This document shows positions 20,537-40,794 of a stretch of DNA of 64,000 bases, one piece after another (the stretch's first letter is position 1; every line of letters starts with the position of its first letter). The notes below the pieces were generated by a model, which ran no database searches, was not told where the DNA came from, and saw only the letters and a list, made by a program, of their open reading frames with translations. Position numbers and translations under genes: made by a program. Origin of the DNA: Trichosporon coremiiforme (lineage: Eukaryota > Basidiomycota > Tremellomycetes > Trichosporonales > Trichosporonaceae). The stretch lies in assembly GCA_039545355.1 (NCBI GenBank), contig BCJJ01000009.1, positions 847,757 to 911,756 on the forward strand. The letters are read 5' to 3'.

Positions 20537-23082
20537 ATGGACGCGTCAAGCAGCTCCAGCTCGGGAAGCGGGGGCCTCGTCTGGACGCGTGACGGCCCAG
20601 TCCTCAAGATGGAGGACGCGGTTGTCGAGACAGTGTAAGTCGACGGTTCACCGGTGCCGCTGACCTTAGTGTGACACACACGACGCGCACGACGACGTCC
20701 TTCGCCCCGATATCTCTCCCGCGCATCCCCGTCCCGGATTTCGTGCCGATGCCCTACTACCTCTCGAGCGAGAGCTACCCGCTCGCCCACGAGCCGACGC
20801 CCGAAGACCTGCGCTTCCTCGAGTTCAACCTCGGCGGGCGTCGTGTCGTAGTCGCCGAGGACGGGGCCGAGAGCACGTCTGGCGAGACTACTGGTCCGGG
20901 ATGGCGCCGGACAGTTGCTACGGGCAACGATGAGCGCGTCGGCCTCGGCAACTACATCAACAGGATCAAGAAGGACAAGGACAGGGAGCACAAGGAGCGC
21001 AAGCGGCCGCACGTGCAGGACGCGCGCTCGCACTCGCCCTTACCTCAGCCGGTTGTGCGGCAGCGTTCTCCGCCACGAAAGAAGGCGCGTCCGAGCGATA
21101 TCTTCACGACCGCCGCCGGCGAGGACCAGAGCCTGATCCCCTCGCCACTGCAGAGCCCAACCGACGGCGGGCACGCGCCCACGCAACCGACATTCGGCTC
21201 GGGCCAGGAGATGGCCGCGCTGTTCTCGCTGCCGGCCATCGTGAACCACTTTGACCAGCTCCCGGACAAGGTACAGCAGCACGTGCTGATGCACCTCTTC
21301 CGCCGGTCGCGCATGCCGACGATCCAGCGCGTGTCGTCGTTTGCTGCGACAGCCCTGAAACGCGACTTCATCTCCCTGCTGCCGCAGGAGATCGCGGTGC
21401 AGGTGCTGTGCAAGGTCGACGTAAATAGCCTTGCTTCCGCTGCGCGCGTCAGCCGGTCTTGGCGCAAGCTCGTCGACGGTGAGCGCTCTGTCTGGCGCAC
21501 GCGTCTCATGGAGGACGGTCTGTGGAGCGGGCACGGCGTGGAGGAAGAGGAGGAGAAGGAGCTTCTGAGGCGGTACGAGGTGCTTGACCGAGAAGCACGC
21601 CGGCGCCACAAGAGCAAAGCTGGCACGCCCAGCGACGACGAGCCGATGCAGGGCGCCAACTCGATCGGCGACCACCCGACGCCATACAAGCACATCTACC
21701 GACGGCGTTACACCAACGACCAGACGTGGCTGAACGCCAAACCGGAGCACTTCTCCTTCCCGGGGCATGGCACGCACGTCGTGACGTGCCTGCAGTTTGA
21801 CGAGGACAAGATTGTGTCCGCGTCCGACGACCACTCGATCAACATCTACAGCACGCAGACGGGACAGCTCCGCAAGCGGCTCGACGGGCACGAGGGCGGT
21901 GTCTGGGCGCTGGAATACAAGGGCGACACGCTCGTCACGGGCGCGACGGACCGGACAGTCCGTGTGTGGGACCTCGAGACGCTGCGCCAAACGCACCTCT
22001 TTGTCGGGCATACGTCGACGGTTCGATGCCTGCAGATCGTCGAGCCGGTCCTCGACGAGGCGACGGGTGAGTACCAGCCTCCATACCCCATGATCGTGAC
22101 GGGATCGCGCGACACTTCGCTCCGCGTCTGGAAGCTGCCGAAGAAGGGCGAGCCGGCCTTCGAAGGGCTGTCTCCTGCTGCTGCGGGCCTGAACGGCGGC
22201 GCAGGCGACGTTCACGCTCCGCCCGAGGAGAACCCCTTCCACGTCCACCACCTCGAGGGCCACACCGAGGCGGTCCGCGCCGTCGCAGCCCACGGCCGCA
22301 TCTGCATCTCGGGAAGCTACGACAAGAACGTCCGCGTCTGGGACATTGTCAAGGGGCAGTGCATCCATGTTCTGCAGGGCCACGAGAGCAAGGTGTACTC
22401 GATCGTGTACGACCGGTTCCGCAACCGCTGCGTCAGTGGGTCGATGGACTATGCCGTCAAGATCTGGGACCTCGCCTCGGGCGAGTGCCTGCACACTCTG
22501 TCAGGCCACACGGCTCTCGTCGGACTGCTCGGCGCCTCGCCGAACTACTACGTCTCTGCGGCCGCCGACGCGAGCCTCCGGGTTTGGGACGCCAACACGG
22601 CCGAGCTCAAACACGTTCTCTCCAGCCACGCAGCGGCCATAACATGTTTCCAGCACGACGAGACCAAGGTCGTCAGCGGTTCCGACGGCACGCTCAAGCT
22701 CTGGGACATCAAGACGGGCCGGTACGTGCGCGACCTGATCATCGGCATCAGCGCCGTGTGGCAAGTGGCCTTCCACGGGGACCGACTCGTCGTTGCCTCC
22801 CAGCGCGCAGGCAGCACAGCCTTTGACGTGTTCTACTTTGGGCGCGACGTGGATCCCGTCGACGACCCAAAGTTGGAGCGCGAGTGTCGACCCTCCTGGG
22901 AGCGGGGAGACCCAAGGGAGCCCCAGACGTACCAGTACGATGTCCCCGACACGGAGGGCGACTACATTGACCGCTACCGCGCTCTCAGTGTCAAGGCGCG
23001 CAGCAGCCAGGTCGAGGAGGTCATGGACGAGGACGAGCATGCGTCGCTCGAGTTTTTGGAGGATGAGATGGACGAGGATTAG
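20537..23082 (+). CDS. CDC4: F-box/WD40 protein Cdc4, SCF ubiquitin ligase substrate receptor
   Basis: Exons 20537-20634 and 20670-23082 give 836 residues. The F-box lies near residues 265-305 (LLPQEIAVQVLCKVDVNSL, ARVSRSWRKLV), followed by the linker helix and HIYRRRYTNDQTWL, a Cdc4/Fbw7 hallmark. Seven clear WD40 repeats start near residue 399 (for example GHEGGVWALEY...VRVWDL and GHESKVYSIVY...VKIWDL), with a partial eighth blade. Cdc4 binds Skp1 through the F-box and phosphodegrons through the propeller, driving destruction of CDK inhibitors and other regulators. The long N-terminus and acidic C-terminal tail (ending DEMDED) are common in fungal members. The short first exon was chosen because its GTAAGT donor joins in frame and supplies an ATG. 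Confidence 0.93.
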
Positions 23083-23767
23083 GAGTTCTCGGTGCGTCCG
23101 AGGCTCGCCGAGCGAGCGCAGCGAGCACAGGCAGCCGAGGTGGCGAGGGAGCGGTCTGGCCGCGAGCAGCGCAAGCGTCCCGAATGGGAGATTGCGCGTG
23201 TCCACCAGGGAGGAGGGGAGAGGAGTGTGTCGCATTCGAAGCGAGTCGTGCGCGGGGGGAGCGTGCCGGTGAGAGAGCACGAGGTGCGTGAGGGAGGAGG
23301 GAGCGCGAGTTTGCGTCCTGCGCGGCCCCTCACCGGCACTGGCAGGGCCGGCGGCAGCGAGAGAGTGCGCAAGCGCCACATCAGCGAGACGCGCACCGTC
23401 TCTGGCTCAAGTGGGACGAGCGAGACGAGTGCTGTCGCCAGCACGAGTAAGGCCAGCACGAGCACAGCCAGTACGGCAAGCACGGGCACAGCCTTCCAGC
23501 ACCCCCTCCTCTGAAGAGGCAGTTTTGTACCACTAGTCTTCCAGTTTTTTCCAGTTTCAGTACCAGATTCTAATACTCCAAGTCATATGTAATTGTACAT
23601 AACCCAGCGCTTGCTGCGCCGTCAGGCGCTGCCACTCTAGCAGTTGTTCTACGGCGTGCAAGGGATAAGTTACGAGTGGGCTAGATGACGCTCCGGTCAA
23701 ACTTGTCGCTTGCCGGCGACCTCGGCGAGAAGGGGTTGGAGGAGATGCGCGCGTGAGGGGCGTTATT
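23083..23767. other. Intergenic region at the left edge of the membrane-protein gene array
   Basis: Convergent space between CDC4 and the first array gene. An open frame to about 23514 continues with Arg/Ser-rich low-complexity translation after the CDC4 stop, but it lacks an ATG-led start or any motif and looks like a GC-rich 3' untranslated region. Confidence 0.4.
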
Positions 23768-24307
23768 CTACGTGTCAGTCGGGGAGGAACGCGGCGACGT
23801 ACTGAGCGGCGTGGTGAGGAGGATTGGGGGGGTGGAGTAGGTGCTAGGCGTGCTTCGAGTCTGGTGGTTCTGCTGTTGGCACGACTCCACGAGTGCAGCG
23901 AGTGGGGAGTGGGGAGTAGGGAGTGGGCGAAAAGAATGAGGGGGAACGAAAGGGGGACGAGAAAGGTGCACACTTACAGGAAACCCAAACCCGAAATCGT
24001 CGAAATCGTCCATACCTCTCCGTCGCTTGCCGTCCTGATAACTGTCCCAAGTGACCAGCGCCAGGAAGCCAAGGATGAACAGCCCGACGAGGGAACAGAT
24101 GATGATGCCTGCGATCTGAATGCCGGAGAGGCCGTTGGCGGGGTCGTGGTAGTTTGGATGCACTCGGGCGGGGATTATGCTGGGTGTTGAGGAAGAGGGG
24201 TCGAGGGGATGTGGGGCGGGGGAGGGGTTGGGGAATGCCAATGGGGATGCGAAGGTGAGACCTAGGAAGACCAGGAAGAGGAGGACGTCGACGACGAGGG
24301 TGTGCAT
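23768..24307 (-). CDS. Array gene A: small type I membrane protein
   Basis: Exons (minus) 24307-23978 and 23872-23768 give 144 residues. A cleavable signal peptide is likely at residues 1-20 (LVVDVLLFLVFLGLTFA). A Pro/Ser-rich lumenal stretch follows, then one span (GIQIAGIIICSLVGLFILGF) and a cytoplasmic tail beginning DSYQDGKRRRGMDDF. The tail has Ser/Thr/Pro-rich sequence but no PPxY and no YGAT end. The intron is phase 0 and sits after the membrane segment, as in its neighbours. It is also 105 bases long with no in-frame stop, so retention would simply insert 35 residues. Family membership rests on position, strand, size and architecture. No function is assigned. Confidence 0.6.
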   Translation of the reverse strand: MHTLVVDVLLFLVFLGLTFASPLAFPNPSPAPHPLDPSSSTPSIIPARVHPNYHDPANGLSGIQIAGIIICSLVGLFILGFLALVTWDSYQDGKRRRGMDDFDDFGFGFPVSVHLSRPPFVPPHSFRPLPTPHSPLAALVESCQQQNHQTRSTPSTYSTPPILLTTPLSTSPRSSPTDT

Positions 24308-25362
24308 TGCGATGTGTGTGAGGAAGGGGGGGGATGAGGGCTGGGGAGGGGGAGCTCCTGCGTGACGAAGAGTCAGCAGAGCTGGGAAGCCGGGGGCGGG
24401 ACTGAAGGGGCAGAGAACAGGTAACAAGTTCAGAGGAGAGAGACCGTGTCGAGGAGGAACAGCTTTCGAAGGGAATCAACAGAGAGTCGCTGCACAGAGA
24501 CAACAGGCGTAGAGATAGGTCGTGGAAGAGAGTGAGATGATGGAGAGATGCATAAAGTGTCAGTTTGGGTCTGTGAGTGTTCCTCGGAGCGAGCGAAGAC
24601 GAGGACATCGGCACAAGTCGCGGTCTGAGCGTCCTCCTCTGGATCCTGGCTGATGTCGGCGTTCACAGGCTGCAGCCATACCACTCCTTCCCTCGCCTCT
24701 GTCCCTCATCGGGTCACAGGCTGAGCCAAACTCAGCTGGAGCTGCAGTCTACGGCTGGGCGTCAGAAAGGGACAGAGCTTTGAGGCAAGTACGCGAGTGC
24801 GCGAGTGCGGCGCTCATTCCCCAGAACCCATCACGGAAGCAGCATCATGAGCAAAGAGAGCAGAGAGAGCGAGGTTGATCAAACCGGACACACAGGGTAG
24901 AATGGTCCGAGAGTCGCCGAGAGCGCCACCGCCGCGCGCCACTTGTTTACCCTTCGCCATCCTCCTCCATCACTGGATCATCGGGGGACGGAATACCCTC
25001 TCCATCACCGTTCCTCACCTCCACTCTTGTACTCTCGTCTATCACTTGAGGAGTTGAAGCTGTTCCACCACTGCCAGCTCTAGGAAGAGCTCGGATCACC
25101 AAGCCACACCAACCACCATCAGCGGCGACTCCGAGTCTCTCTGCTTCCTTCATCCATCCTGAGGATTGATGGAACGAGAGAACATGCATTACATAAACAT
25201 TTCGGGGTTTCGTTATCGAGACATAAGTAGACTTCTGATGCGCGTGGATAGGTGATAAGATCTGAAGAAGCGTGAATGAGTGATTTGGGTGTGATTGTGT
25301 CTAATAGCGAAGAGCAGAATACGTGCAAGTAGAAGAACTCTCGCGACTTGCGATCGTCAGCA
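24308..25362. other. Gap between array genes A and B
   Basis: No open frame with a membrane segment or PPxY tail was found on either strand. A minus frame at 24947-25189 is hydrophilic and motif-free. It may hold the promoter of gene A and possibly a decayed copy, but nothing seen supports a gene. Confidence 0.35.
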
Positions 25363-26029
25363 CTATGACTGCGTCGAGCCATAGTTCTTGTGCCCGTTCG
25401 ACGCTTCCGCGGAGTATGGCGGCGGAGGGGCATCGCTGCTCTCTCCATGCCCATGTCCATGGGGGTTGGGAGGAGGGTGCGGCTGCGGTTGCACGTTTCC
25501 GGGAACTGGGTGGTAGACCTGGTTGTCAGCTTGTAGGGCCCATATGCATAGCTGTTATCCTCTTGAGTGCTCCGAGGCTGGGCCATTCAACATCTCCAGA
25601 CCGTAGTCTGTCGACATCACACCAAGCACACCGGGCAGACTAACGCGGTCATGCGACCGTCTTCGTCACGCCCTCCACTCAGCCCTCTCCCTCACGCCTC
25701 CTCTGTCTTTCTCGCCCATCTGATCTCTTCGCTGCAGTCCAGCGCAACCTCGCTGGCCTCGACGGCTTGCTCGCGCTCGCACTTACCCTGTAAACAATCC
25801 TCTCCTCCGGCCCATTCCTGCATCCGATCATACACGCCAGCAGGCAAATGCCCGCCAGCTTGAGGAACACGAGCAGGAACGTAATGGCCATGAAGGAGAA
25901 CACGAACACGAGAATGAAGCGCGCAATCGGGTCCAGGTCCACATCAGGGTAGTCGGGGTAGTCGTCGTGATGGCCCAGCGCGCCGAGGGAGCGCAGGCCA
26001 ATGTGGCCGGGGTGGATGACTGGAGCCAT
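25363..26029 (-). CDS. Array gene B: one-span membrane protein with PPPY and a C-terminal NYGST motif
   Basis: Exons (minus) 26029-25787 and 25518-25363 give 132 residues. Residues 1-37 are hydrophilic with an acidic HHDDYPDYPDVDLD patch and no signal peptide. A span follows (FILVFVFSFMAITFLLVFLK and adjoining residues), then a Cys pair and the basic/acidic RNGPEERIVYR ending the exon. The tail exon contains Pro- and His-rich sequence (HPPPNPHGHGHG), DAPPPPYSAE, and the terminal motif NYGSTQS. PPxY motifs bind WW domains, notably those of Nedd4/Rsp5 ubiquitin ligases. The intron is phase 0, 268 bases, with a canonical GTAAGT donor and AGCTGACAACCAG acceptor. Confidence 0.65.
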
Positions 26030-26343
26030 GGCGCTAGTTCAGGTCGAAACAGGGGTTGGCGACGAGAACGATGCTGATGAGGTGTAAGGAGTGCGTTAAA
26101 TGACTCCCAATGGAATGAGAGGAGGAGAAAGGAGTGTTGGTTGGATGTGAGTGTGACGGTGACGGTGACGACAGGTGAGATGGGCAGGTAAAACACGTTG
26201 GGTGGCGACAGAAACGCAGTGACGAAATCGTTGATCTGCCGTTTTCAGGCACGGTTGATTTCTCGGCGGGGGCACCGCCCTCACCCTCCTTCTCCCTTCT
26301 CGAGGATACAATGAAAGAACGAATGCATGCAAGTGCGAGAGGA
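26030..26343. promoter_or_regulatory. Spacer between array genes B and C
   Basis: Probable promoter and leader of gene B. Contains GTGACGGTGACGGTGACG, a short tandem repeat at about 26154-26171. Nothing else is seen. Confidence 0.35.
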
Positions 26344-26944
26344 CTACTTTGACCGCGTCGCGCCATAGTTCTGGATCGGTGACGGGTCCATTACGTGGTA
26401 CCGGTTGTACTCGATGCGAGGGTCGCGGGTTTGGTAGGGCGGCGGCGAACCAGTGCTGGGCCCCGCCTTGGAAGGGGGCGGTGGGCCCGGCGGAGGAGCG
26501 TACTGCGGCTGCTGGGGAGTGTAGTACCCGCCGTGAGACGTCGAGTTTGGTGGAGGGGGCGGGGCATAGTGTTGCGCCGAGCATGCTCGCATTCGTCCCC
26601 ACTGATCTTCATGGTAGTGCTGGGCGTCAGCTACTCGTCGGTCCCAACAGCTGCCTCCAGAGTTCTAGCTTGAGCCCTTCTCTCATACTGCCCCTCTCCA
26701 ACGCGTTGGAAGCTGTACTCACCACGTTTGTCGGCTGGCAGTCCGCACCAGTCAACCAGCTCACGAACCGGAGCACCTGTTGCAAGGCGGCGAAGAAGGC
26801 AATCGCGAAGGCGAAGAAGATCGCCGCGCGCAGGAAGAAGCCCAGGAAGAGGCCGATCTCTTCCCCGATTGGAGGGTGCGAAGGATGTGCCTCATTCCAT
26901 TGTGAAGACGTGGCCCTAGAAAAAAGAGAAGGTAGAGCGGGCAT
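26344..26944 (-). CDS. Array gene C: one-span membrane protein with HEDxWGR, PPPY and NYGAT motifs
   Basis: Exons (minus) 26944-26723 and 26619-26344 give 165 residues. A hydrophilic N-terminus is followed by a long span near residues 30-60 (FLGFFLRAAIFFAFAIAFFA). The exon ends after TGADCQPTNV. The second exon opens HYHEDQWGRMRACSAQHY, closely matching genes D and E. The tail is rich in Pro, Tyr and Gln, holds SPPPYQTRDPR, and ends QNYGATRSK. The tail exon is exactly 276 bases, the same as in gene D, which argues for recent common ancestry. The intron is phase 0 with a GCTGACGCCCAG acceptor. A role as a ubiquitin-ligase adaptor is inference from the PPxY motif alone. Confidence 0.72.
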
Positions 26945-27129
26945 GGCGGATGCTGTGAAGAGAAGAGCGACAGGATGGAGCGTCGATCACTTCAAGAAGA
27001 GCCGCGTCAGTGAGTGGCAAATATTCAGGCACGGAGGACACCCTGTTCGTCTCGTGAGGGCTAAGCGATGCGATGCATTAGGGCGGCTGTACTGTAGGAG
27101 CACGCCTCCGTCCCGTGACTAACTTGGTT

Positions 27130-27699
27130 CTACATGCTCTTGGCGAAGCGCGTCGCTCCATAGTCTTGCAGTGGACTCGGCGCTGTCGGGTCGCGGGGAT
27201 CGTATGGCGGAGGCGGCGCTGACTGAGGCATCATGAGCGGACCTGGACTCGGTCCGGCGCTCAGTGGACTAGGAGGGGGCGCGTACATTGGCGGCGGGCG
27301 AGGTCTGGGCTGCTGCACGAGAGGGGCTCTCTCGCTGCGCTCCTCACGCGGGTAGTGATCAGCCGTGCATGCTCGCATGCGGCCCCATCGGTCTTCGTGG
27401 TGGTGCTGGAGGTCAGTCCACCTCCCCTCCCCCCATACCTCTGTACTCCTGAAGGCTGGAACAAGGACACTCACATAGTTAGCTAGACCACAGTCCAGCC
27501 CCGTCAATGACTCGAATCCAAGCACGATCAACCTTAGGGCGAAGTTGAGGATCAGTCCAATGATGAAGAGCCCGGCAATGAAGCCAAGGAAGGGAGCAAG
27601 GTCGCCGATCGACGGGGCGGCTGACGGCTTCTTTGGGCGGGATCCGTCCCAGCCGGGCGGGAGGGTAACTTCTGAAGCGATAGAAGCAATAGGAGGCAT
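27130..27699 (-). CDS. Array gene D: paralogue of gene C
   Basis: Exons (minus) 27699-27475 and 27405-27130 give 166 residues. Start set at MPPIASIA by analogy with the short N-termini of its neighbours, though the frame stays open upstream. A span lies near residues 35-60 (FLGFIAGLFIIGLILNFALR), followed by ESLTGLDCGLANY, matching the SWLTGADC segment of gene C. The second exon opens HHHEDRWGRMRACTADHY, then Pro-rich sequence, APPPPYDPRDPT, and the end QDYGATRFAKSM. Intron phase and position and the 276-base tail exon match gene C. Aligning C with D shows identity concentrated at the membrane exit, the HEDxWGR block and the YGATR end. Confidence 0.72.
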   Translation of the reverse strand: MPPIASIASEVTLPPGWDGSRPKKPSAAPSIGDLAPFLGFIAGLFIIGLILNFALRLIVLGFESLTGLDCGLANYVSVLVPAFRSTEVWGEGRWTDLQHHHEDRWGRMRACTADHYPREERSERAPLVQQPRPRPPPMYAPPPSPLSAGPSPGPLMMPQSAPPPPYDPRDPTAPSPLQDYGATRFAKSM

Positions 27700-27830
27700 G
27701 GTGCAGTCAGATGTTAGTTGGGTCAGGTAAACGTCGATCATCTTAAGAGGGTTGAGCGCGGGTGGCAAACCGACAGGCACGCACCGCTCGCCAAGAGTTA
27801 GGTCAGGCGATACATTCGTGAAGTCTATTG

Positions 27831-28380
27831 CTACAGTGGTTTGAGGTACGTTGGAGGAGAGTTTGGAGCCGGGCTTGGCTCCCCAGCTGCCTGCGGGGAT
27901 GCTGAGTCGCTCATCGAGCTTACACCGTCCTCGTGATCTCGAGCAGCACACGTTTCGTACTCCTTGAGGGAGCAGTATGGCGGCGGTGCCGAAGGCCGGT
28001 GATCCGGCTTCTCCTCAACATGGACGAACAACACAGGCATCTTAACATCAGGCGGATAAGTGAAGCACCCCTCCTCGGCGTCGGAGTAGCAGTTTGGTCT
28101 CGTGCACATCCGTACACGTCCCCACTCGTCCTCGTGGCAATGCTGCGGTCAGTACTCTTCTCCTCCCAGCAGTAGAACTCACTCTATCCATCCTACCCTG
28201 ACTCGCCATCATCCACTGTCTGACCTTCATCGCGCCTCTCACGACGAAAACGATGAGTAGTACCAAGCTCAAGTTGACTCCGAAGAAAACAAGAGTCCGT
28301 GCGATGAGAGTGAGGTACGCCGACATCGCCGATGGTTCTGAGCGCTCGTACGGGCTAGCTTCGAGCATGATGGCCGGCAT
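27831..28380 (-). CDS. Array gene E: HEDxWGR one-span membrane protein with two PY motifs
   Basis: Exons (minus) 28380-28183 and 28142-27831 give 169 residues. The start MPAIMLEASPYERSE is the best of several in-frame ATGs. The span lies at about residues 25-50 (LVFFGVNLSLVLLIVFVV). The intron is short (40 bases), phase 0, with a CTGACCGCAG acceptor. The tail opens HCHEDEWGRVRMC, sharing the block of genes C and D, and is Cys-rich after it (TRPNCYSDAEEGC). Two PY motifs are present, APPPYCSL and the near-terminal PPTYLKPL. It lacks the YGAT end. Confidence 0.68.
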
Positions 28381-28618
28381 GATGATGCATGAAGAAGAGA
28401 GCAGCACGGTCAGCTTATGAGGTAGTGATTGGCTGAAGAAGTCGAGAAGATGCCTGGGTGAGTCGCCAGGCGTAAGGCACGGGGCGGTTCCGATGCTGAT
28501 GCGGGCGATGCATTCGGGCGGTATGATACAACAGGGCGGGGCACTGGAACGGTTGGCGGCCTCGCGGCCTCGGAACACCGAGGCGGCCCACGGGATTTCC
28601 ACCCCGTGAGGCGTGATA

Positions 28619-29080
28619 TTACAAACTATGAGGACAAGAACACTTATGCTCCTTGTCGCTCGTGGCACCATAGTCCCGTACGTCTTGCGTCAGCAGGACG
28701 TCCTGCCGGTCGGGGTGGTCTCGCGCCGCGTACGGCGGCGGCGCTTGCTCCTGCAATCTACTCGGTCCAGTTCGTTCAGCTTCGACATCGGGAGGGTGCG
28801 GTGACGGGTCATACCGAGATTGCTTCTGCGAATGCCTGAGAGCGGGCTGGTGCGCAAGTACCGCGTGCACCCTGCGCACTCGGGTGACGGGTAAGCTACC
28901 TGGATCCACGAGGGGATCGGGAGGAGCAGTGAGCGCAGACTCGAGCCCACGGATGAGGAGTAGGAAGAGGTACATGAGCGCGAGGAAGAGGATGATTACG
29001 GTCAAGAGGTTTACGCGGATCTCGAAGTGCATGCGCGGGGCATAGGGGTCGTAGCTCTGGGAGGTTTGGAGAGTGGGCAT
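28619..29080 (-). CDS. Array gene F: one-span membrane protein with PPPY and DYGAT
   Basis: Read as one 153-residue exon starting MPTLQTSQSYDPY. A strong span lies near residues 23-43 (LLTVIILFLALMYLFLLLI). The tail contains RYDPSPHPPDVEAE, QAPPPYAARDHPD and RDYGATSDKEHK, ending in a Cys-containing CSCPHSL. The PPPYxxRD and DYGAT spacing resembles gene D. Unlike B-E it shows no needed intron, although splice-like GTGCGC and CTCAG sites occur between span and tail. An upstream in-frame ATG exists, but the chosen one gives the short N-terminus usual in the array. Confidence 0.62.
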   Translation of the reverse strand: MPTLQTSQSYDPYAPRMHFEIRVNLLTVIILFLALMYLFLLLIRGLESALTAPPDPLVDPGSLPVTRVRRVHAVLAHQPALRHSQKQSRYDPSPHPPDVEAERTGPSRLQEQAPPPYAARDHPDRQDVLLTQDVRDYGATSDKEHKCSCPHSL

Positions 29081-29299
29081 GGTGGTGATGAGGAGCGCGG
29101 GCACGAGTGCGAGCTTCCTGCTCTTATACTGCACACTGGCGATGCCTGAGAGCGATTGGCCACCGAGGTACAGAGGTCACAGTCGGATGAATTGATCTGA
29201 AGCGACACTCCACCTGGGCGTGAAGGAAGTGCCTGCTTGGCCCTGCAACGACAGGGGATCTGTGGCGAGCTGGGTTGTCGCCACAAGGGTGGAAGTTTC

Positions 29300-29769
29300 T
29301 TACCTGGAGCCGATGGAACCGTAAGTCAGCACCCTCGCTCCGGCGCCAAGGGGAGCCCTCTCCTCGTCCGAGGACCAGCCGTCATTCGAGTACGGTGGCA
29401 GCGGTCTGGGGAAGACACCCTCATCCTGATGGTGCCTTTCCAGCCACTCTTCTGCCATTCTCGCCTGCCGCTTCCGTCTCCATCTCCGTCGCCGGTGCGT
29501 GAAGTCTCCGCTCCCGACTTCTTGGTCTGTGAGCTGCTTTTTGTCAGTGGGGGAACTGACGGTGGGCTCACGGAAGGAGGAGGGTCGGTATACTTGGAGC
29601 TGACTCGGATAATGCACGCCACGAGGATGGCGAGGAGTGCCAGAGGAGCTACGGTTACGACCAGCTCCAAGATGAGAAGGGGTCCGAAGGCCAGGGGTCT
29701 GAGGATTTGTTCGTTAGTTGGCAGACGGACCGAGTCGACCGAGTAGGCTGAATGTGGGATGGCTACCAT
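29300..29769 (-). CDS. Array gene G: one-span membrane protein with PPY and TYGSIG end
   Basis: Exons (minus) 29769-29572 and 29533-29300 give 143 residues. A span lies near residues 32-55 (LLILELVVTVAPLALLAILV). The exon ends in a proline run (TDPPPS). The tail exon starts LTDQEVGSGDF, is strongly basic (HRRRRWRRKRQAR), then contains RPLPPYSNDGW and ends LTYGSIGSR, a diverged form of the YGAT end. The intron is 38 bases, phase 0, with ACTGACAAAAAGCAG as branch and acceptor. A second acceptor a few bases later would lead into a different frame without PPxY. The TAA stop sits inside AGGTAAGA, a sequence that itself resembles a splice donor. Confidence 0.6.
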
Positions 29770-29934
29770 ACTGATGAGCTGAGGGTTAGAAGACAAGGGC
29801 GAGCAGGTTGTCAATCTATAAGGCGGGACAAGGCGGCGGCAACAGAGGCTTCGGCATCAGGCAGTGGTGCATAGATAATACAAGACGGCGAGCATCAATA
29901 GACCCTCAGACACAAAAGCGGGCGAGAGAACAAG

Positions 29935-30387
29935 CTACACGGGAGAGTACGTCGGAGGTGCTGTCTTGCCTTGCACTCCTGCGACTGGCGGTGGTGGTGG
30001 CGGGTAGACTGCGTTCGGCTGAGCAGTGTACGCAGATGTCGCATTCGGGTTGTAGGGATCAGTCTGTGGGCAGTCAGCAAGACGTCCTCGGCCCGTTTTT
30101 TTCTCCTTCCCTTCTTCCAACATGATCCATTCCAACACCGACACCTTTGTACTCACGGAATAGACGTTCTGCTGCAACGGCGGCGGGGGTCGGTACTGCT
30201 GGAACTGCTCCGCCATCTTGTTCGCGAGGTATGCACTGCGGATGCACGTCCCGATGAGGGTGAGGATGATGAATGAGCCAATGACGGACACAACGACGAC
30301 CCAAGCTGTCTGTCCTGCAGTCCACTCCCACTCAGCGCGAGCAAGGGGTAAGACAGCGAGCGCAGTCGGTATCAAGAGAGCGAGCAT
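29935..30387 (-). CDS. Array gene H: small type I membrane protein with a C-terminal PPTY motif
   Basis: Exons (minus) 30387-30157 and 30063-29935 give 119 residues. Signal peptide residues 1-18 (MLALLIPTALAVLPLARA), a very short ectodomain (EWEWTAGQ), then a span (WVVVVSVIGSFIILTLIGT). The cytoplasmic part carries YRPPPPLQQNVYS. After a phase-0 intron it continues TDPYNPNATSAYT, a run of six prolines and APPTYSPV at the extreme C-terminus. Such terminal PY motifs fit Rsp5-binding membrane adaptors, yeast Rcr1/Rcr2 being the nearest conceptual parallel. No sequence homology to those proteins is claimed. Confidence 0.68.
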   Translation of the reverse strand: MLALLIPTALAVLPLARAEWEWTAGQTAWVVVVSVIGSFIILTLIGTCIRSAYLANKMAEQFQQYRPPPPLQQNVYSVSTKVSVLEWIMLEEGKEKKTGRGRLADCPQTDPYNPNATSAYTAQPNAVYPPPPPPVAGVQGKTAPPTYSPV

Positions 30388-31605
30388 GGCGAAGTGAGAG
30401 GTAGTTGCAACTTGTCAGGAACTTTGCAAGAGGATCCAGCACCTTATCAACAGTGCAAAGAGCTAGCGGGCAACAACGCTCCGCTTGCTTCTCCCGGAGC
30501 CGAACACTGGTCACCAGAAGGAAGCTGCGAGCCCGTGCGCTTGTCTAGCCGTAGAGCGCGTAAAGAGTGACCGGAGCGGTGCAGATCCGGAAGGTCGTGA
30601 CGCTGCCACTCGGCACGCTCGGTAACGTCGGCGCCACCCCAGCCACAGCACCGCCGATAACAACCGGGCGGTGCAGGCGAATCACTTTCTGCCTGAATCC
30701 TATCTATCCCATGTTCTGCTTGACTGACACTCTCATTCAGCCACTGCAGCTGCTGCTGATGGCAGAGCTCGTGACAGCACGCCAAGACCTGACACAAACT
30801 AAGGCACGCGCAGTGCCAAGACCAACGGAGTGCTACGTCGGTGGTCCCCTTCTCCTCATTCCCGGAGGCTGCGCCGCCGTGGCCGCAGCACGCGGGGGCG
30901 ACGTCGGCAAGATGAAAGACGCCAGAGCCTTCCCTGTTGGCACAGGCTCCGACTCGGGCGTCAATACAATCCGAAGCCGGAGTATAGGTGCTGGGAGGCT
31001 TCAACCGAGTGCTGATCCACGCTGGTGAGCGGGCAATGCGACACCTGTGGAGCTGGCTATACCGGAAGTCAGCGGCGCGTTCGCGAGTGCCATAGCCGCG
31101 ATCAGTGTTTTTCAATCCTGAGAGGGGTATCTGTCGTGTCCGACGCTTGGTACGGAGGGTGAACGACGTGCGTCGGAGGTCGAGCTTGCGGCCAGCTCTC
31201 CCTCCTCACCTCCCCATCCCACGGCGACCTTAAGCGCCAACGGCGCTTGCCCACTCCCTATTGACTTCCGCTGCTCTTTGCGGCACCTCCTCAATCCCAG
31301 CCATTAGATGGCCCTCCACTGACGGACTTCCTCCTGTAACGCCGTACTAACAGCACGGCGATGAGAGCGGTGAGGACGTCTGAGCCCGATGGTACACAGT
31401 ACAAAGTCCATGCATCACAGAGAAGGTTTATACAGAGAAGGTATGTACAGAGAATGAGAGTCGAAGAGCCGGAGAACAGTCAGTTCATGCGTCCAGGTCT
31501 CAGACCTATCAGAGAGGCTGGAAGCGCTTGTCGCGGTAGCGTGCATTGGGAGAGTGTGTAAGAATGTCTGCAGTGGGTGAGCCGGCGGCGCTGGCAATCG
31601 GGCGG
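30388..31605. other. Gap inside the membrane-protein gene array
   Basis: About 1.2 kb without a supported gene. Long overlapping frames on both strands (minus 30447-31115, plus 30567-31028) show no family motif. On the minus strand near 31293-31370 one frame reads LTALIAVLLVRRYRRKS before a stop, which looks like a membrane exit with basic flank, but no start or splice pattern could be built around it. It may be a decayed array member. Confidence 0.35.
31417..31455. repeat. 15-bp tandem repeat
   Basis: ACAGAGAAGGTTTAT and ACAGAGAAGGTATGT follow each other directly, with a partial third unit ACAGAGAATG. It lies just downstream of array gene I. Confidence 0.85.
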
Positions 31606-32376
31606 CTAGAGCCCAAACCCGTTCAGGCTCCAATCGATGGGATGCACGGGCTCGAGGTCAGAGAGCAAGACGTCGCTGCCCTGCTGGCTAGTCATTCCGG
31701 TGACCGAGCCATTGGCCAGGCGCGGGCTGATCGGGGTCGAGGCACTGTCACCGTCGGGTGTCAGGTTGGGTGTCGAGTTGTTCGCGCCGCTCGCCCTAGT
31801 GCTATCCGCACGAGCTCCGGAAGTCTGGATGGTCCCACCCAGGCCTTCGCGCTCCTCGCGTTCTTCACGCTCGATGCGGGCACGCACGTGAGGCGCCAGT
31901 TCGTCACGGGGCGCCCAGCGGCGCTCGAACTCGGAATCCTCCGAGCCACGGGGAAAGCGTGGACTGGGCTCCCAGAGGAAGGGCGAGTGGCGCCATCCCT
32001 CGGAGTTGGGCTCGCTGTCCTCCCAGCTGGGATTCTCGTCGTCGACGATAGGGGCATACGGGGCTCGCTCACGATCGGTCCAGGAGCAGAGCCAGTCCCA
32101 AAGCCCCTGGCACAGGGTCTGGAGTCTCTCGCGATACCCAACGGGGCGGGGGAGGGTGCCGTGGCGAAGGATCAGGGTTGTGCTGGAGCGGCTGGCCAGG
32201 AGCGCGGTCGTATCGCTCGTCATGGTGAAGGGCAGGACGGAGGTGATCGTGCGGTGCAAGTATTGGTAGGTTGCGTACGCTGCGAAGAGACCCAGGACGG
32301 GGAGCAGGGTCGAGAGGTTCACTACCGAGCTGGCGGAGAGGGAACGGGTGGCTGGGGAAGCGGTCTCGTCGACCAT
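31606..32376 (-). CDS. Array gene I: larger one-span membrane protein, unrecognised
   Basis: Single exon, 256 residues, starting MVDETASPATRSLS. One hydrophobic segment lies near residues 20-42 (NLSTLLPVLGLFAAYATYQY). The remainder is hydrophilic, with RDRERAPYAPIVDDENPSWED, a charged EREEREEREG helix and a Ser/Thr-rich C-terminus. There is no PPxY or YGAT end, and the tail is longer than in the other array genes. Placement in the array is by position, strand and single span only, so it may be unrelated to the rest. No function is assigned. Confidence 0.6.
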   Translation of the reverse strand: MVDETASPATRSLSASSVVNLSTLLPVLGLFAAYATYQYLHRTITSVLPFTMTSDTTALLASRSSTTLILRHGTLPRPVGYRERLQTLCQGLWDWLCSWTDRERAPYAPIVDDENPSWEDSEPNSEGWRHSPFLWEPSPRFPRGSEDSEFERRWAPRDELAPHVRARIEREEREEREGLGGTIQTSGARADSTRASGANNSTPNLTPDGDSASTPISPRLANGSVTGMTSQQGSDVLLSDLEPVHPIDWSLNGFGL

Positions 32377-32918
32377 GTCGATGCTGGGGATGAGAGTGAA
32401 AGTGAGAATGAAAGTGAGAAGGGATAAGGCGTGTCCGTGGGGTTGCCACGGTGTGCTGGACGCTGATGCACTTCGTTCGTGTGTTCGTATGGAGGGCGAG
32501 AGTGCGATTATCGCTGGCGGACTGGTGGACAAGCAGGCTAGCACACGCCTGTTGCTGCCCCAGCGCCACTCGAGTGCTGAATGGCGGCCGCTAACCGTGC
32601 CGTGCATCAGATTGTAGTCTATGTTCGCTCCTGTACACGTCTTCTACTACGCATCAGTATTCTTGGAAGGAGGTACCTTGATCTCGTCGGTGGACAACTC
32701 GGGTGGCTGGGGCGTTAGTGTCGACCACTCCGTCCACCACTCTCACACTCACGAAAACTCACGAAATCACCTCCAATCTACCCCTCCCGTCCATTGTCGG
32801 AGCACTCGACGATCCTAACCTCGCCATCCCCACCATCCCGAATTCGGGCATCTTATTCCGCCATCACCTTCTCCCTTCGCCTAGCCTTGCTCCACCGAAC
32901 ACACAGATGCGCCAACCC
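32377..32918. other. Spacer between array genes I and J
   Basis: Probable promoter of gene I. On the minus strand, 32706-32647 carries a spliceable-looking terminal exon (CACTAACGCCCCAG acceptor) encoding PPELSTDEIKVPPSKNTDA before a stop. Its parent gene is unclear; it could be the tail of gene J or an orphan. Confidence 0.35.
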
Positions 32919-33050
32919 CTACCCTAACAGGCCGCAGCCGACGAGACTCCCAATCGCGACGCCGATGGTAGCGACGCCCCCGAGGTTGTCGGCTCGCGCG
33001 GCAGGGAGCAGCGTGAGTGATAGGAGCGTTGCAAAACGGTGGGTCTTCAT
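32919..33050 (-). CDS. Array gene J: 43-residue signal-peptide/membrane ORF, possibly a first exon
   Basis: Starts MKTHRFATLLSLTLLPAARA, a good signal peptide, followed by DNLGG and a hydrophobic segment (VATIGVAIGSLVGCGLLG) that ends at a stop. The shape matches the membrane exons of genes A, H and K, so this may be exon 1 of a spliced gene with the donor GGGTAGGG overlapping the stop. A candidate tail exon lies at 32706-32647, but the phases do not match simply. It may equally be a truncated pseudogene copy. Confidence 0.4.
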   Translation of the reverse strand: MKTHRFATLLSLTLLPAARADNLGGVATIGVAIGSLVGCGLLG

Positions 33051-33823
33051 GATTGTCGAGCAGAGTGAAGTCGTAGAGTGACCTCGTTCTTGAGGAGGAG
33101 TCATATTCTACTCGTGCGTACTTCGACTGCGGCGACAGTTTCCCGAGGCACCACAATACCACTCAAAGCAACGCACAATACGCGCATGGCCAACCCAAGA
33201 CTCCAGAATCAAATACTTGCGTCACATGCCCGACGTCTTCGGAGGCGACACAGCCCCCAGCTCACCGTCGACTCGCCGACTGCGCGATTTGCGTCTGCGC
33301 GCAGACTTTGTGTTGGGAGCCGATACCTTCTTCAGCGCGGGCACACGGCCTGCCCATGTGGAGTCGTGGTGCCTCCGCGATGTGCCTCCGTGGCTCTCGG
33401 AGCAGGCAGTTCAGCAGCGAAGCTGTGCGCCATTGTTCCTCTGACTGCTTCGCGCAGTGCATCACGCACCCCCAGATGTTCTGGCTCGGCCGGCTCGGAG
33501 GTGAAGGACGATAAGGGTGGCGGTGGCGGGGAGCCCCGCAGATAAGTACTGTCTCTGAGGTCTAGGCGACGCACCAAGCCATGGTCGACTCGTGGCGTGT
33601 CGCACTGCGAGTCTTGCTTTTAGTATGTGCAAGACGTGCAAGGAAAGTCGGAGAACCCGCGCTCGCACTCTTTATTCAACATCCCTCGCCTCCCTTGTAT
33701 TCAGAGGAGGCTTTGGCTCCCATCATCCCTTCCCTCGCTGATCATGCACTCTCCGCCACTACTGCCATTATACCGTATTTCATATTCGCTACTGCTGTTC
33801 TCTACGTTACAAGATGTCCAGGC
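33051..33823. other. Spacer between array genes J and K
   Basis: Presumed promoter of gene J plus the 3' flank of gene K. Short frames on both strands show no motif or membrane segment. No RNA gene is seen. Confidence 0.4.
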
Positions 33824-34318
33824 TTATGCGTGTGAGTAGTTCGCGTTCGCGTTCGCGTTCGCGGGCGGCGTACCGTACGGCTGTGGCGAAGCGGGGCTGG
33901 TGGCTGGCGGCGCGCCATAAGACTGCGCCGATCCCGCCGGCGGAGCACCATAAGTCTGCGGGCTGGTGGGAGCGCCATACGGTTGCGTCGCCGGCGCCGT
34001 CGGCGCAGCATAAGACAGCTGATACTCATACCCCGGCGGCGGCGGGGGCAGTTTGCCCTCGCTCTCAACGGCGTACAGCTGCTGCTGCTGTAAAGCGGGG
34101 ACGGGGCCGAGGGCTTGTTCCTTTTGGCGCTGGCGGCGCTTCATGCACCACACAAGCAGGCCGATGAGGGCGCCCCAGAAGAGGAGGTTTATGATGACGA
34201 TCGCGACGATGACGCCGACGGAGAGGGCGGTGGAGGTGGAGGAAGAGTAGTAGTAGTATGCCCTGGCTGGGCGGGCGGCGAGCGCCACGGCCAGGAGGGC
34301 GAGGGTGGGGAGTGACAT
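33824..34318 (-). CDS. Array gene K: type I membrane protein with YGAPP-repeat tail
   Basis: Single exon, 164 residues. Signal peptide residues 1-20 (MSLPTLALLAVALAARPARA), then a Tyr/Ser/Thr-rich short ectodomain (YYYYSSSTST), one span (VGVIVAIVIINLLFWGALIG) and a basic stop-transfer (CMKRRQRQKEQ). The tail has LPPPPPGYEYQ, then repeated Y-G-A/T-P-P units: QPYGAPTSP, QTYGAPPAG, QSYGAPPAT, QPYGTPPAN. These resemble the YGAT end of genes C, D and F multiplied. It ends NANANANYSHA. The architecture matches gene H. The role is unknown; Tyr/Pro-rich tails of this type suggest protein-protein docking or low-complexity assembly. Confidence 0.7.
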   Translation of the reverse strand: MSLPTLALLAVALAARPARAYYYYSSSTSTALSVGVIVAIVIINLLFWGALIGLLVWCMKRRQRQKEQALGPVPALQQQQLYAVESEGKLPPPPPGYEYQLSYAAPTAPATQPYGAPTSPQTYGAPPAGSAQSYGAPPATSPASPQPYGTPPANANANANYSHA

Positions 34319-37300: not shown

Positions 37301-38277
37301 GCGCTCTGCGCGCTGTGCGGGTGGTCGGGACCACGGCTATGCATGGCTGGGTTTGGCTGGGCAGCTGGGCGGGTGGACCCTGTGACCTGGACAAGGTTGG
37401 CCTGGCCTCGGGTGGTGCACCACGGTGAGCATCGGTTTGCACTCCGCGGCCCTCCCTCTTGAGCCCTATAGCCCTCGTTCCCTCACCCTGGAATGGCCAG
37501 CATCCCTTAGCGTTTAGCGTCAGGTCTAGAGACCACGGAGCTTTCGAGACCAGACCTCGAGAGCGAGCAAGGTGATCCTCATCTCTTGCACGCACACTCA
37601 CCTCGACCGCCAGCCTGCACACGGCACACGGCACACTCCTACTCATCGCCTTCACGGCTTTGAACAAGACATTCCTCTTCACCATCACCACCACTCTCTC
37701 TCTCTCCTCCGCAGTCGCAATCCCCACCTTAGCACCACCACTACTGCGACCAACGACGAAAGCGACCCCTCGACCCCCCCTGCCCTTACCCACCCCCTCT
37801 CCCCCGACTGGCCCGCCTGGCCCGCTTGGCCCGACACCGCTCACCGCTCACCGCTCACCACACACAGCCTCACCCCTCACCCCTCACCCCTCACACACGC
37901 AGACACCAGACGCTACCTCCACCGGCCCGTCACCTGTCTCACTCCAGACACACCGCTCCCTTCCTCCTTTTCCTGTCAGTCAGTCATCCTACCTTGCATC
38001 TCCGGTCGACACCCTCCCCTTCACATCTTTCTCAGTCGCCTGTGTCCGGTGACAAGACTCTCTTCCAGCGGACACACCCCGCAACTTGGACTTGCCCTCC
38101 GCCCCGGGCATGCAACACCCGTCAACCCGCTCTGTGCACGATTCACCCTCGATTTCCTAGTGATCACTAAGCGACCTTTTCTTTCCCGGGCCACCCTTCA
38201 TCACACACACACACCGACACCGGCACCGGCCCCAATCCCTTACCCCCCATCACTTGTTGCCCACCGACCTCCCCACC
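34319..38277. other. Long gene-poor region and leader of the AGC kinase gene
   Basis: Almost 4 kb without a supported gene. The longest frame (minus 35295-35948) is Arg/Ser-rich and motif-free. From about 37570 the plus strand is C- and A-rich with repeated CACCCCT and CTCACCG words, which looks like a long leader of the kinase gene at 38278. A run of 14 G residues (36269-36282) and a GAT microsatellite (about 36956-36972) are the only simple repeats of note. Confidence 0.45.
36269..36282. repeat. Homopolymer G run (14)
   Basis: Fourteen consecutive G residues on the plus strand. Such runs are slippage-prone, and the exact length may be uncertain. Confidence 0.85.
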
Positions 38278-40794
38278 ATGTCCTCCTCCATCGCATCGCC
38301 GCAGCACCACTCACCAGGCTTGAACGGGACGCACTCACCACCCCTTGCGACACCCTCCGTCTACCCCCAGACCCCGACCTCCCACCCGTCATCAAACGGC
38401 AACGGACACGGAAATAACGGGCATGTCTCTCGCTGGCGCACCGTCTTCAAACCTAAGAAGGGGAAGAAGGACCGCTCCAAGGATTTGGGAGATACGGTAC
38501 CGGCACTCCCGGAACTCGACGGCGGTGTCCACGCACCGTTCATGAATGACGACTTCGAATCGGCGCTCGCTGCGTCGTCGCCCAGCACGTCCATGTCCGA
38601 ACCAAAGCAGAGCATCGCCACGATTGACAGCGAGCGGGGAGGGCAATCTGGGTCTGGCGGGTCGAGCTACGTGCACTCGTCGCCCGTCGCTTCTGTCCCG
38701 TTCGCCCCCTCCGCGTCTGCGTACCCGGCTGAGCCCTGGGCAACTCCGGCACCCGCGGCGGCGGCAGGAGCGACATCGCAGGATCAACAGCACCAGGGAC
38801 GCCCACTGTCGCATTCATACTCCATCTCGACGCAGGACGACGACCGGTCCTCGTCCTCGTCTCGGTCAAGAGTGCCTAACGCGTCGGGCGCAATCTCAAA
38901 TGGCATTCCCACGGTTGCGACCGGCTCCATGTCCTCACTGCACAGTGCCCACACGACATCACGTTCCGGCCCGTTCAAGGGACGGTTCTTCTCCTCGCCT
39001 TCCGTCAGCACGACAAGTATCGTCTCCGAGAGCAACGGCACGAAAAAGGACGGCAAGTACAAGGGACTCGGCAAGAAGAAGCCGAGCCATATCAACATTG
39101 ACACGAAGAGCAATGTTTCACTAGTGTCGAGCCCACCGAATCGCAGCATACCTCCAAAGAAGAAAGATGAGCAGCCGACGAGCGCCGATTCGCATAAAGG
39201 ATCTGCAGCTCAACGATTCATCCGCCGCGTCGTGTCTGCTCCCAACGCGAAGGCGCTGTTCGCGAAGAACGCCGCTCCGGAAACGCCGCCACCCCTCCCC
39301 ACCAAGTCCAAGGACTTTAACGGGTCGACCCCGGTGCCGTCCGTGGACTTGACCACGACACCCCCGCCCCAGCCGATGAGCGGCAAGACATCGGGATCCT
39401 CCCTCGCCTCTCCCTCGACACCAGTCCGGTCCAACACGCCTTCATTCCTGAAACCGTCCGGGCTCTCGACGACAGGAACGCGTGGCTCGCGCGCCCACTC
39501 TACGAGTGTCGTGGCGAGCCGGTCGGCCGCGGGCTCCAACTCGTCCCTCCTGCAGGCGCCTGCCGCGGGATTCCGACGCACGTACTCGTCCAACTCGATC
39601 AAGACGCGAAGTGTGGAGGTGTCGCCGAGCTCGTTTGAGAAGATTAAGCTGCTCGGCAAGGGCGACGTCGGCAAGGTGTACCTCGTGCGGGAAAAGAAGA
39701 CGGACAAGCTATTCGCGATGAAGGTGCTCAGCAAGAAGGAGATGATCAAGCGAAACAAGATCAAGCGCGCGTTGGCGGAACAGGAGATCCTGGCCATGTC
39801 CAATCACCCGTTCATCGTGACGCTGTTCCACTCGTTCCAGTCGAACGACTACCTGTTCTTCGTGCTCGACTACTGCATGGGCGGCGAGTTCTTCCGTGCC
39901 CTGCAGACGCGGCCAGGCAAGTGTCTCGCCGAGGAGCATGCCAAGTTTTACGCTGCCGAGGTCATTGCCGCGCTCGAGTACCTGCACCTGAACGGATACA
40001 TCTACCGCGACCTGAAGCCTGAGAACATTCTGCTGCACCAGAGCGGACACATTATGCTTTCCGACTTTGACCTGTCGAAGCAGTCTGGACCAGCTGGCGG
40101 TGCCCCGGCCGTGATCAAGCAGAGCGGACAGAACGGTGTGCTCCTCGTCGACACGCGGTCGTGTATCGCCGACTTCCGCACCAACTCGTTCGTCGGAACG
40201 GAAGAGTACATCGCCCCCGAGGTCATCAAGGGATGTGGCCACACCTCTGCCGTCGACTGGTGGACGTTAGGAATCCTAATTTACGAGATGATCTTTGCGA
40301 CGACGCCCTTCAAGGGCCCGAACCGCAACGCGACCTTCAGCAACGTGCTGAAGACGGACGTAACGTTCCCAGACGACAAGCACGTGTCGAACAACTGCAA
40401 GTCGCTCATCAAGAAGCTCCTCATCAAAGATGAGCACAAGCGGTTAGGCTCGAGTGCGGGCGCGAGCGAGGTCAAGCAGTCCAAGTGGTTCACGAACATC
40501 AGCTGGGGTCTGCTGCGCCACATGACCCCGCCCATCATCCCCGCCGAGTCGAACGGCATCGACACCGTTAACTTTAGGACTATCCGCGACTCGAAGAGCA
40601 TCGACTTCACGTCGGGCGTGCTCATGCCCGATGCCCAGGGAGAGGACATTATCCAGGGCCACGCCGGGTTCCCCGCCACCGCACCCGGCACGCCGGGCAT
40701 GGCGACGCCAAAGGAGCTCGTACCGATTGCAGACGAGAAGAACCCGTTCAACGAGTTTTCGTCGGTGACGAGGGACTTTATTGATGGCTACTGA
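38278..40794 (+). CDS. AGC protein kinase of the Fpk1/Nrc-2 (flippase kinase-like) type
   Basis: Single exon, 838 residues from the first ATG in frame. The N-terminal 450 residues are Ser/Pro/Thr-rich with basic patches. The kinase domain runs from about 452 to 760: glycine loop GKGDVGKV (460-467), catalytic lysine in AMK (K482), YRDLKPEN (576-583) and the magnesium motif DFD (596-598) in place of DFG. An insertion separates DFD from [18 protein letters not shown] plus this insertion is characteristic of fungal Fpk1/Nrc-2 kinases and plant AGCVIII kinases. The C-terminal NPFNEF resembles the hydrophobic motif. Yeast Fpk1/Fpk2 phosphorylate phospholipid flippases and Neurospora NRC-2 controls development. 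Orthology is likely; the exact substrate here is inference. Confidence 0.9.

Follow-up and report, generated by a model that had tools for sequence, protein, structure and literature searches.

Is a run of small same-strand genes whose products combine one membrane span with a PPxY motif a genuine, conserved gene array, and what might such an array do? The question is raised by a locus in the 64,000-nucleotide (nt) stretch of contig BCJJ01000009.1 analyzed here (the window; coordinates without a contig name refer to it). A preliminary description had listed eleven genes of one kind, A to K, each with one hydrophobic segment. All lie on the minus strand, but the array consists of nine one-span genes, A–H and K (23681–34318), whereas the open reading frames (ORFs) I and J differ from them. 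The nine encode proteins of 119–169 amino acids (aa), E being the longest (169 aa), and their spans were assigned from hydropathy only, with two overlapping hydrophobic peaks in G; in ORF I there is just a weak stretch (best 19-residue hydropathy mean, 1.64). The motif [LP]PxY (PY motif) follows the span in eight of the nine genes (B–H and K), twice in D and E. The PPxY tails described earlier for B–H are thus confirmed, and K adds PPGY (PPVY in its partner gene, see below). Gene A lacks PPxY in either reading, single-frame or two-exon. As judged from sequence comparisons, it is well supported that the locus is a conserved array of one-span PY proteins, for which only close relatives have been found so far.

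The combination of a span with a PY motif downstream of it, near the C-terminus, is clustered here more than by chance. A scan with thresholds fixed after the array had been seen found seven such sites on the minus strand and none on the plus strand of the 10.8-kb cluster, and one in the remaining 53.2 kb of the window on two strands. Another contig, C10, carries the locus a second time; this 14.3-kb copy gave six (minus strand) and its flanks none (25.7 kb, two strands), and 18 loci fetched for other reasons gave two in 127,548 strand-bases.

Second Copy of the Array and Selection

The source genome comprises 42.0 Mb in 134 contigs. The window between 11.8 and 48.7 kb is colinear with 40 kb of C10 (806–846 kb), and the HECT genes of the genome form four pairs; the genome therefore looks duplicated. 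Because of this duplication and the match of H to a Trichosporon asahii protein, the source is likely a duplicated, hybrid Trichosporon-like genome. Two Trichosporon hybrids are reported, with parental amino-acid divergences of 7% and 17% (PMC6642101).

The frames had been expected to stay open in a related copy, and on C10 A, B, C, E, G, H, I, and K do have open counterparts, with strand and order preserved, but D and F are broken there, and J has no counterpart in the DNA alignment with that copy. Roughly at the J position lies a minus-strand frame (C10:828738–829067) that encodes a hydrophobic span next to basic residues; it could be related to J and have diverged or decayed. The partners of E (129 vs. 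169 aa) and K (134 vs. 164 aa) are shorter than the window genes, and the second exon of A (23767–23681) is nearly identical in its partner.

Ratios of nonsynonymous to synonymous substitution rates (dN/dS) between window and C10 by the NG86 method are 0.08 for A, 0.09 for B, 0.17 for C, 0.27 for E, 0.24 for G, 0.12 for H, 0.25 for I, and 0.16 for K, with dS > 1, hence saturated, for A, E, G, and K. The YN00 method yielded values for three of nine genes (B 0.08, C 0.22, I 0.11). Amino-acid identity to the C10 partner ranges widely (A 87.7%, B 92.4%, C 73.9%, E 48.1%, G 53.7%, H 84%, I 69.5%, K 69.5%), and the control, the neighboring F-box/WD40 gene, shows a dN/dS of 0.05 and an identity of 98.1%. 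Given dN/dS values of 0.08–0.27 and identities of 48.1–92.4% against 98.1% for the control, the comparison indicates that the array genes are under purifying selection and that several of them evolve fast.

Conservation of the PY Motif

For each tail, the motifs kept between window and C10 were compared with the XXxX patterns kept, an idea taken from PMC1557994. Comparable tails were those of B, C, E, F, G, H, and K, with D left out and the F tail coming from a broken gene. Seven of the eight PY motifs in these seven PPxY genes are retained. Tail identities are 89% (B), 80% (C), 32% (E), 45% (F), 54% (G), 86% (H), and 49% (K), and the retention of XXxX patterns is 0.71, 0.54, 0.13, 0.12, 0.24, 0.63, and 0.24, respectively. 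The product of background retention over the seven kept motifs is 2.3e-4, and 7e-5 with the background restricted to other proline-containing patterns, the lost E motif being excluded from both. Shuffling the tails produces a PY motif in 0.03–0.35 of trials per gene. The x position can differ where P, P, and Y are retained: K has PPGY in the window and PPVY on C10, and H has PPTY, PPTY, and PPIY, T. asahii included. The array shows docking motifs held while the remainder of several tails drifts.

Relationships Among the Array Genes

The family relation through local expansion that was proposed earlier applies to part of the array. C, D, and E are, by their sequences, clearly side-by-side paralogues (C–D, E value 2e-13, 66.7% over 36 aa; D–E, 5e-5; C–E, 1e-4), with HxHEDxWGRxRxC right after the span common to all three. 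B, F, G, H, and K, on the other hand, gave no significant alignment to the remaining members, the pairs B–F and F–G likewise, and their common descent with C/D/E rests on exon layout and short motifs. A single phase-0 intron separates the span from the tail in A, B, C, D, E, G, and H, that is, in all seven intron-bearing genes of the array, and there is none in F and K; the C-terminal motif [ND]YG[AS]T occurs in B, C, D, and F, and G ends with TYGSI. That all members share one ancestor is likely, yet unproven. Local duplication followed by fast divergence is favored because of the common exon layout, and is unproven for B, F, G, H, and K.

The shared HxHEDxWGRxRxC element (26344–28142) contains many His, Asp/Glu, and Cys residues and may bind metal or act as a membrane-proximal element. 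A block upstream of D contains a 16-mer found exactly at window position 27747 and at C10 positions 823647 and 821241.

A protein database was searched with B, C/D/E, and H by a word-based method of short reach, so distant homologues could be missed. It returned three matches for C/D/E, five for B, and four for H, two of them (P0003, P0004) being the window's own exon-1 frames. The relative of B, P0006 (57%), ends in APPPYSPQASGHKNYGATQS and has the motif as PPPY; C has the relative P0002, and that of D, P0001, is a read-through prediction (86%). The orthologue of H is the annotated T. asahii protein A1Q2_01087 (P0009), which has the same 119 aa as H and is identical to window H at 108/119 and to C10 H at 104/119 positions.

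Searches of the source genome with A–H and K revealed no further clear array member (D was searched to an E value of 0.001 only). Outside both array copies, weak matches were obtained for H (4) and K (7), with E values of 0.001–0.5, and of the frames at 8 of these 11 places, all that were inspected, none was accepted as a further member, although one of them is the C7 frame with PPRY described below. B, F, G, C, A, and E gave nothing at E < 0.005 outside the two loci; a match of A on C70 has an E value of 0.00536.

Proposed Function and Alternative Explanations

Rsp5 depends on adaptors for its choice of membrane cargo. The genome encodes an orthologue of the Rsp5-type ligase with three WW domains and a HECT domain, in two copies identical at 723/731 residues, and the best six of its 13 WW matches are the WW domains of these copies, which we take to belong to the PPxY-binding class. 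Flanking charge is more positive C-terminal of the span in 7/9 window genes and 6/7 C10 genes, and A, H, and K have, by reading, signal-like N-termini. We consider it somewhat probable that B–H and K are tandemly expanded, lineage-restricted transmembrane adaptors of Rsp5; their topology, WW binding, cargo, and the common origin of all eight are inferred, and a ligase link of the array is plausible. Each protein would have a single span and a C-terminal tail in the cytosol, where [LP]PxY would dock one or more WW domains of the ligase. The span and membrane-proximal part, encoded by exon 1, would pick a partner membrane protein, e.g., a transporter or a cell-wall synthase, and the partner brought to Rsp5 would be ubiquitinated and sorted to the vacuole, in the manner of Comm, which acts on Robo1 with Nedd4, and of Rcr1/Rcr2, Bsd2, and Sna3, which work with yeast Rsp5. 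Local duplication would have produced several versions in which the span part varies and the docking tail is kept.

A Pfam scan of ten proteins (A–I and K) gave no match at the cut-off. Weaker matches were seen for C, E, F, G, H, and K and set aside; the strongest was that of K to Cadherin_C_2 (E value 0.013, 16.6 vs. 31.5 bits). No arrestin domain and no Sna/Pmp3-type family matched in these ten, and apart from the signal-like N-termini the array proteins have one span, not two. The RCR family (PF12273) had no match at E ≤ 1 among them and one genome-wide, away from the array and below the cut-off (15.3 vs. 27.8 bits). The likeness to yeast Rcr1/Rcr2 suggested earlier therefore does not extend to the family level, and RCR membership of the array proteins was ruled out. 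Tentatively, and with rather more doubt than for adaptors as such, one may think of a lineage-restricted family of single-span ligase adaptors, clustered on the chromosome and with no detected RCR relation, that is built of two modules: a fast-changing, cargo-reading membrane exon and a tail exon with PPxY and, in several, [ND]YG[AS]T. Such a family may have taken over the RCR role. Among the papers listed by a literature search over open-licence full texts, none deals with such an array.

Several known systems are comparable. Of the non-arrestin Rsp5 adaptors, Bsd2, Tre1/2, Ear1, and Ssh4 have extra domains or spans, and in Drosophila the genes comm, comm2, and comm3 lie together. Rcr1/Rcr2 of Saccharomyces are likewise small single-span proteins with PY motifs in the tail, Rcr1 being described as binding Rsp5 (PMC5578492) and as an adaptor for Chs3 (PMC9105457), but there are two yeast paralogues against an array of eight, besides the lack of PF12273 matches. 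Drosophila Commissureless (Comm) is a short one-span protein whose PY motifs are reported to recruit Nedd4 to membrane cargo (PMC12101832); it is an animal protein, and a relation to the array in sequence is not expected. Its own ubiquitination is reported to be dispensable for activity in commissural neurons (PMC3655966), and PY motifs may thus do more than recruit the ligase. Sna3, Bsd2, Tre1/2, Ear1, and Ssh4 are PY-containing and work with Rsp5 (PMC9105457), but Sna3 is described with two spans (PMC2171029) where the array proteins have one. The α-arrestins Ali1 and Ali2 of Cryptococcus neoformans share PxY motifs and a tremellomycete Rsp5 as partner, and the adaptors named for that fungus in PMC11481503 are arrestin-like; unlike the array proteins, these are arrestin-domain proteins.

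Chance ORFs or mispredicted exons are a highly improbable account of the array. J and the original end of A are such cases, but 10 of the 11 frames have a syntenic counterpart (decayed for D and F), the eight open ones have dN/dS < 0.28, and H is annotated in T. asahii; chance origin was rejected on the purifying dN/dS against the C10 partners. The main rival of Rsp5 adaptors are Rsp5 clients, proteins in which PPxY would serve only self-sorting to the endosome or vacuole and whose own function, such as cell-wall or surface sensing, would lie elsewhere. Sna3, a small PPAY membrane protein, is reported to depend on Rsp5 and on the PY motif to be sorted itself (PMC2171029), and every PY tail has one to five lysines. 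We nevertheless regard clients as rather unlikely: the tails of B, C, D, and G carry 1–2 lysines against 3–14 arginines (the G+C-rich genome also favors arginine, with 32 K and 62 R in a control protein), one motif behind diverging spans would suit adaptors better, and Sna3 is reported to act as an adaptor too (PMC9105457). More unlikely still is a reading in which the tails, rich in Pro and Tyr, bind a different partner (SH3, profilin, actin or cell-wall proteins, or a WW protein other than Rsp5) and PPxY arises in part from composition. The proline content of the C, D, H, and K tails (19–23%), the YGAP repeats of K, and the further WW genes in the genome would fit this, but the F and G tails (15 and 9% Pro) retain the motif where XXxX retention is only 12 and 24%. 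Rsp5 membrane adaptors are preferred because of the presence of Rsp5, the absence of an RCR match above the cut-off, the fit of the charges, and the Comm, Rcr, and Sna3 models.

Several observations weigh against adaptors docking on Rsp5. PY proteins with one span also occur outside the array, as shown by an open frame of 262 aa at C7:1497536–1497898 that has a single span and the tail motif PPRY, and WW genes other than Rsp5 exist (six of the 13 matches fall in the Rsp5 copies). The charge rule gives no support to a cytosolic tail for D and F of the window and for G of C10. In four genes only, C, D, H, and K, PPxY is fairly likely to arise from the Pro/Tyr-rich composition of the tail (0.27–0.35 per shuffled tail), and the second PPxY of E is missing from its C10 partner. 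Finally, D and F are dispensable in the C10 sub-genome because their copies there are broken: the D partner has stops in the exon-1 frame and a Ty1/copia-like fragment in place of exon 2, and the F partner (C10:824466–824927) lacks the start codon ATG and is interrupted by a TAG in frame upstream of DYGAT, with PPPY retained. At the D-partner exon 2 site (C10:821250–823340), Gag-like and reverse-transcriptase-like fragments, of Ty1/copia type by reading, lie in separate frames.

If the eight PY membrane proteins are indeed Rsp5 adaptors, they would form a compact, genetically tractable set for studying how ligase adaptors multiply and split cargo. The duplicated genome provides a natural comparison, in which one of the two copies has already lost D and F to decay.

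Gene Models and Features of the Locus

The features are collected in Table 1, with exon models of the window and the C10 copy chosen by eye. Except for the unsupported frame J, the genes of the earlier single-ORF models are real, but A, B, C, D, E, G, and H each contain an intron of 38–268 nt, and the former end of A at 23768 is intronic; F, I, and K are single-exon.

Table 1. Genes, reading frames, and an upstream element of the array.
Feature	Length (aa)	Position	Strand	Exons	Characteristics
Gene A	138	23681..24307	-	24307-23978, 23767-23681	Signal-like N-terminus, one span, basic juxtamembrane, no PPxY
Gene B	132	25363..26029	-	26029-25787, 25518-25363	APPPPYS, C-terminal NYGSTQS, three juxtamembrane Cys
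Gene C	165	26344..26944	-	26944-26723, 26619-26344	HYHEDQWGRMRAC after span, SPPPYQ, NYGATRSK
Gene D	166	27130..27699	-	27699-27475, 27405-27130	HHHEDRWGRMRAC, PPMY and PPPPY, DYGATR
Gene E	169	27831..28380	-	28380-28183, 28142-27831	HCHEDEWGRVRMC, APPPYC and SPPTYL
Gene F	153	28619..29080	-	No intron	APPPYA, DYGATS
Gene G	143	29300..29769	-	29769-29572, 29533-29300	PLPPYS, TYGSIGSR; 38-nt intron
Gene H	119	29935..30387	-	30387-30157, 30063-29935	Signal-like N-terminus, span, APPTYSPV end
ORF I	256	31606..32376	-		No PPxY; weak hydrophobic stretch; conserved, different kind
ORF J	43	32919..33050	-		Unsupported frame or relic; no aligned partner
Gene K	164	33824..34318	-		Signal-like N-terminus, span, KRR juxtamembrane, PPPPPGYEYQLSYAAPT tail (PPGY)
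Upstream block of D		27732..27768	-		TTGCCAC...CTTAAGATGATCGACG; common to upstream of C: decayed in window, exact on C10

J is linked to the array solely by 24 residues that match A in the span (E value 0.002). The neighbors of the array are ordinary genes, encoding an F-box/WD40 protein, a protein kinase, and MCM5 (20593–23082, 38164–40794, and 46982–48913, respectively). The array introns have, by reading, GT[AG]AG-like donors and a CTGAC-type branch sequence a few bases before the acceptor. Two introns are very short, those of G (38 nt, 29534–29571) and E (40 nt, 28143–28182), with the CTGAC-like branch close to the acceptor.

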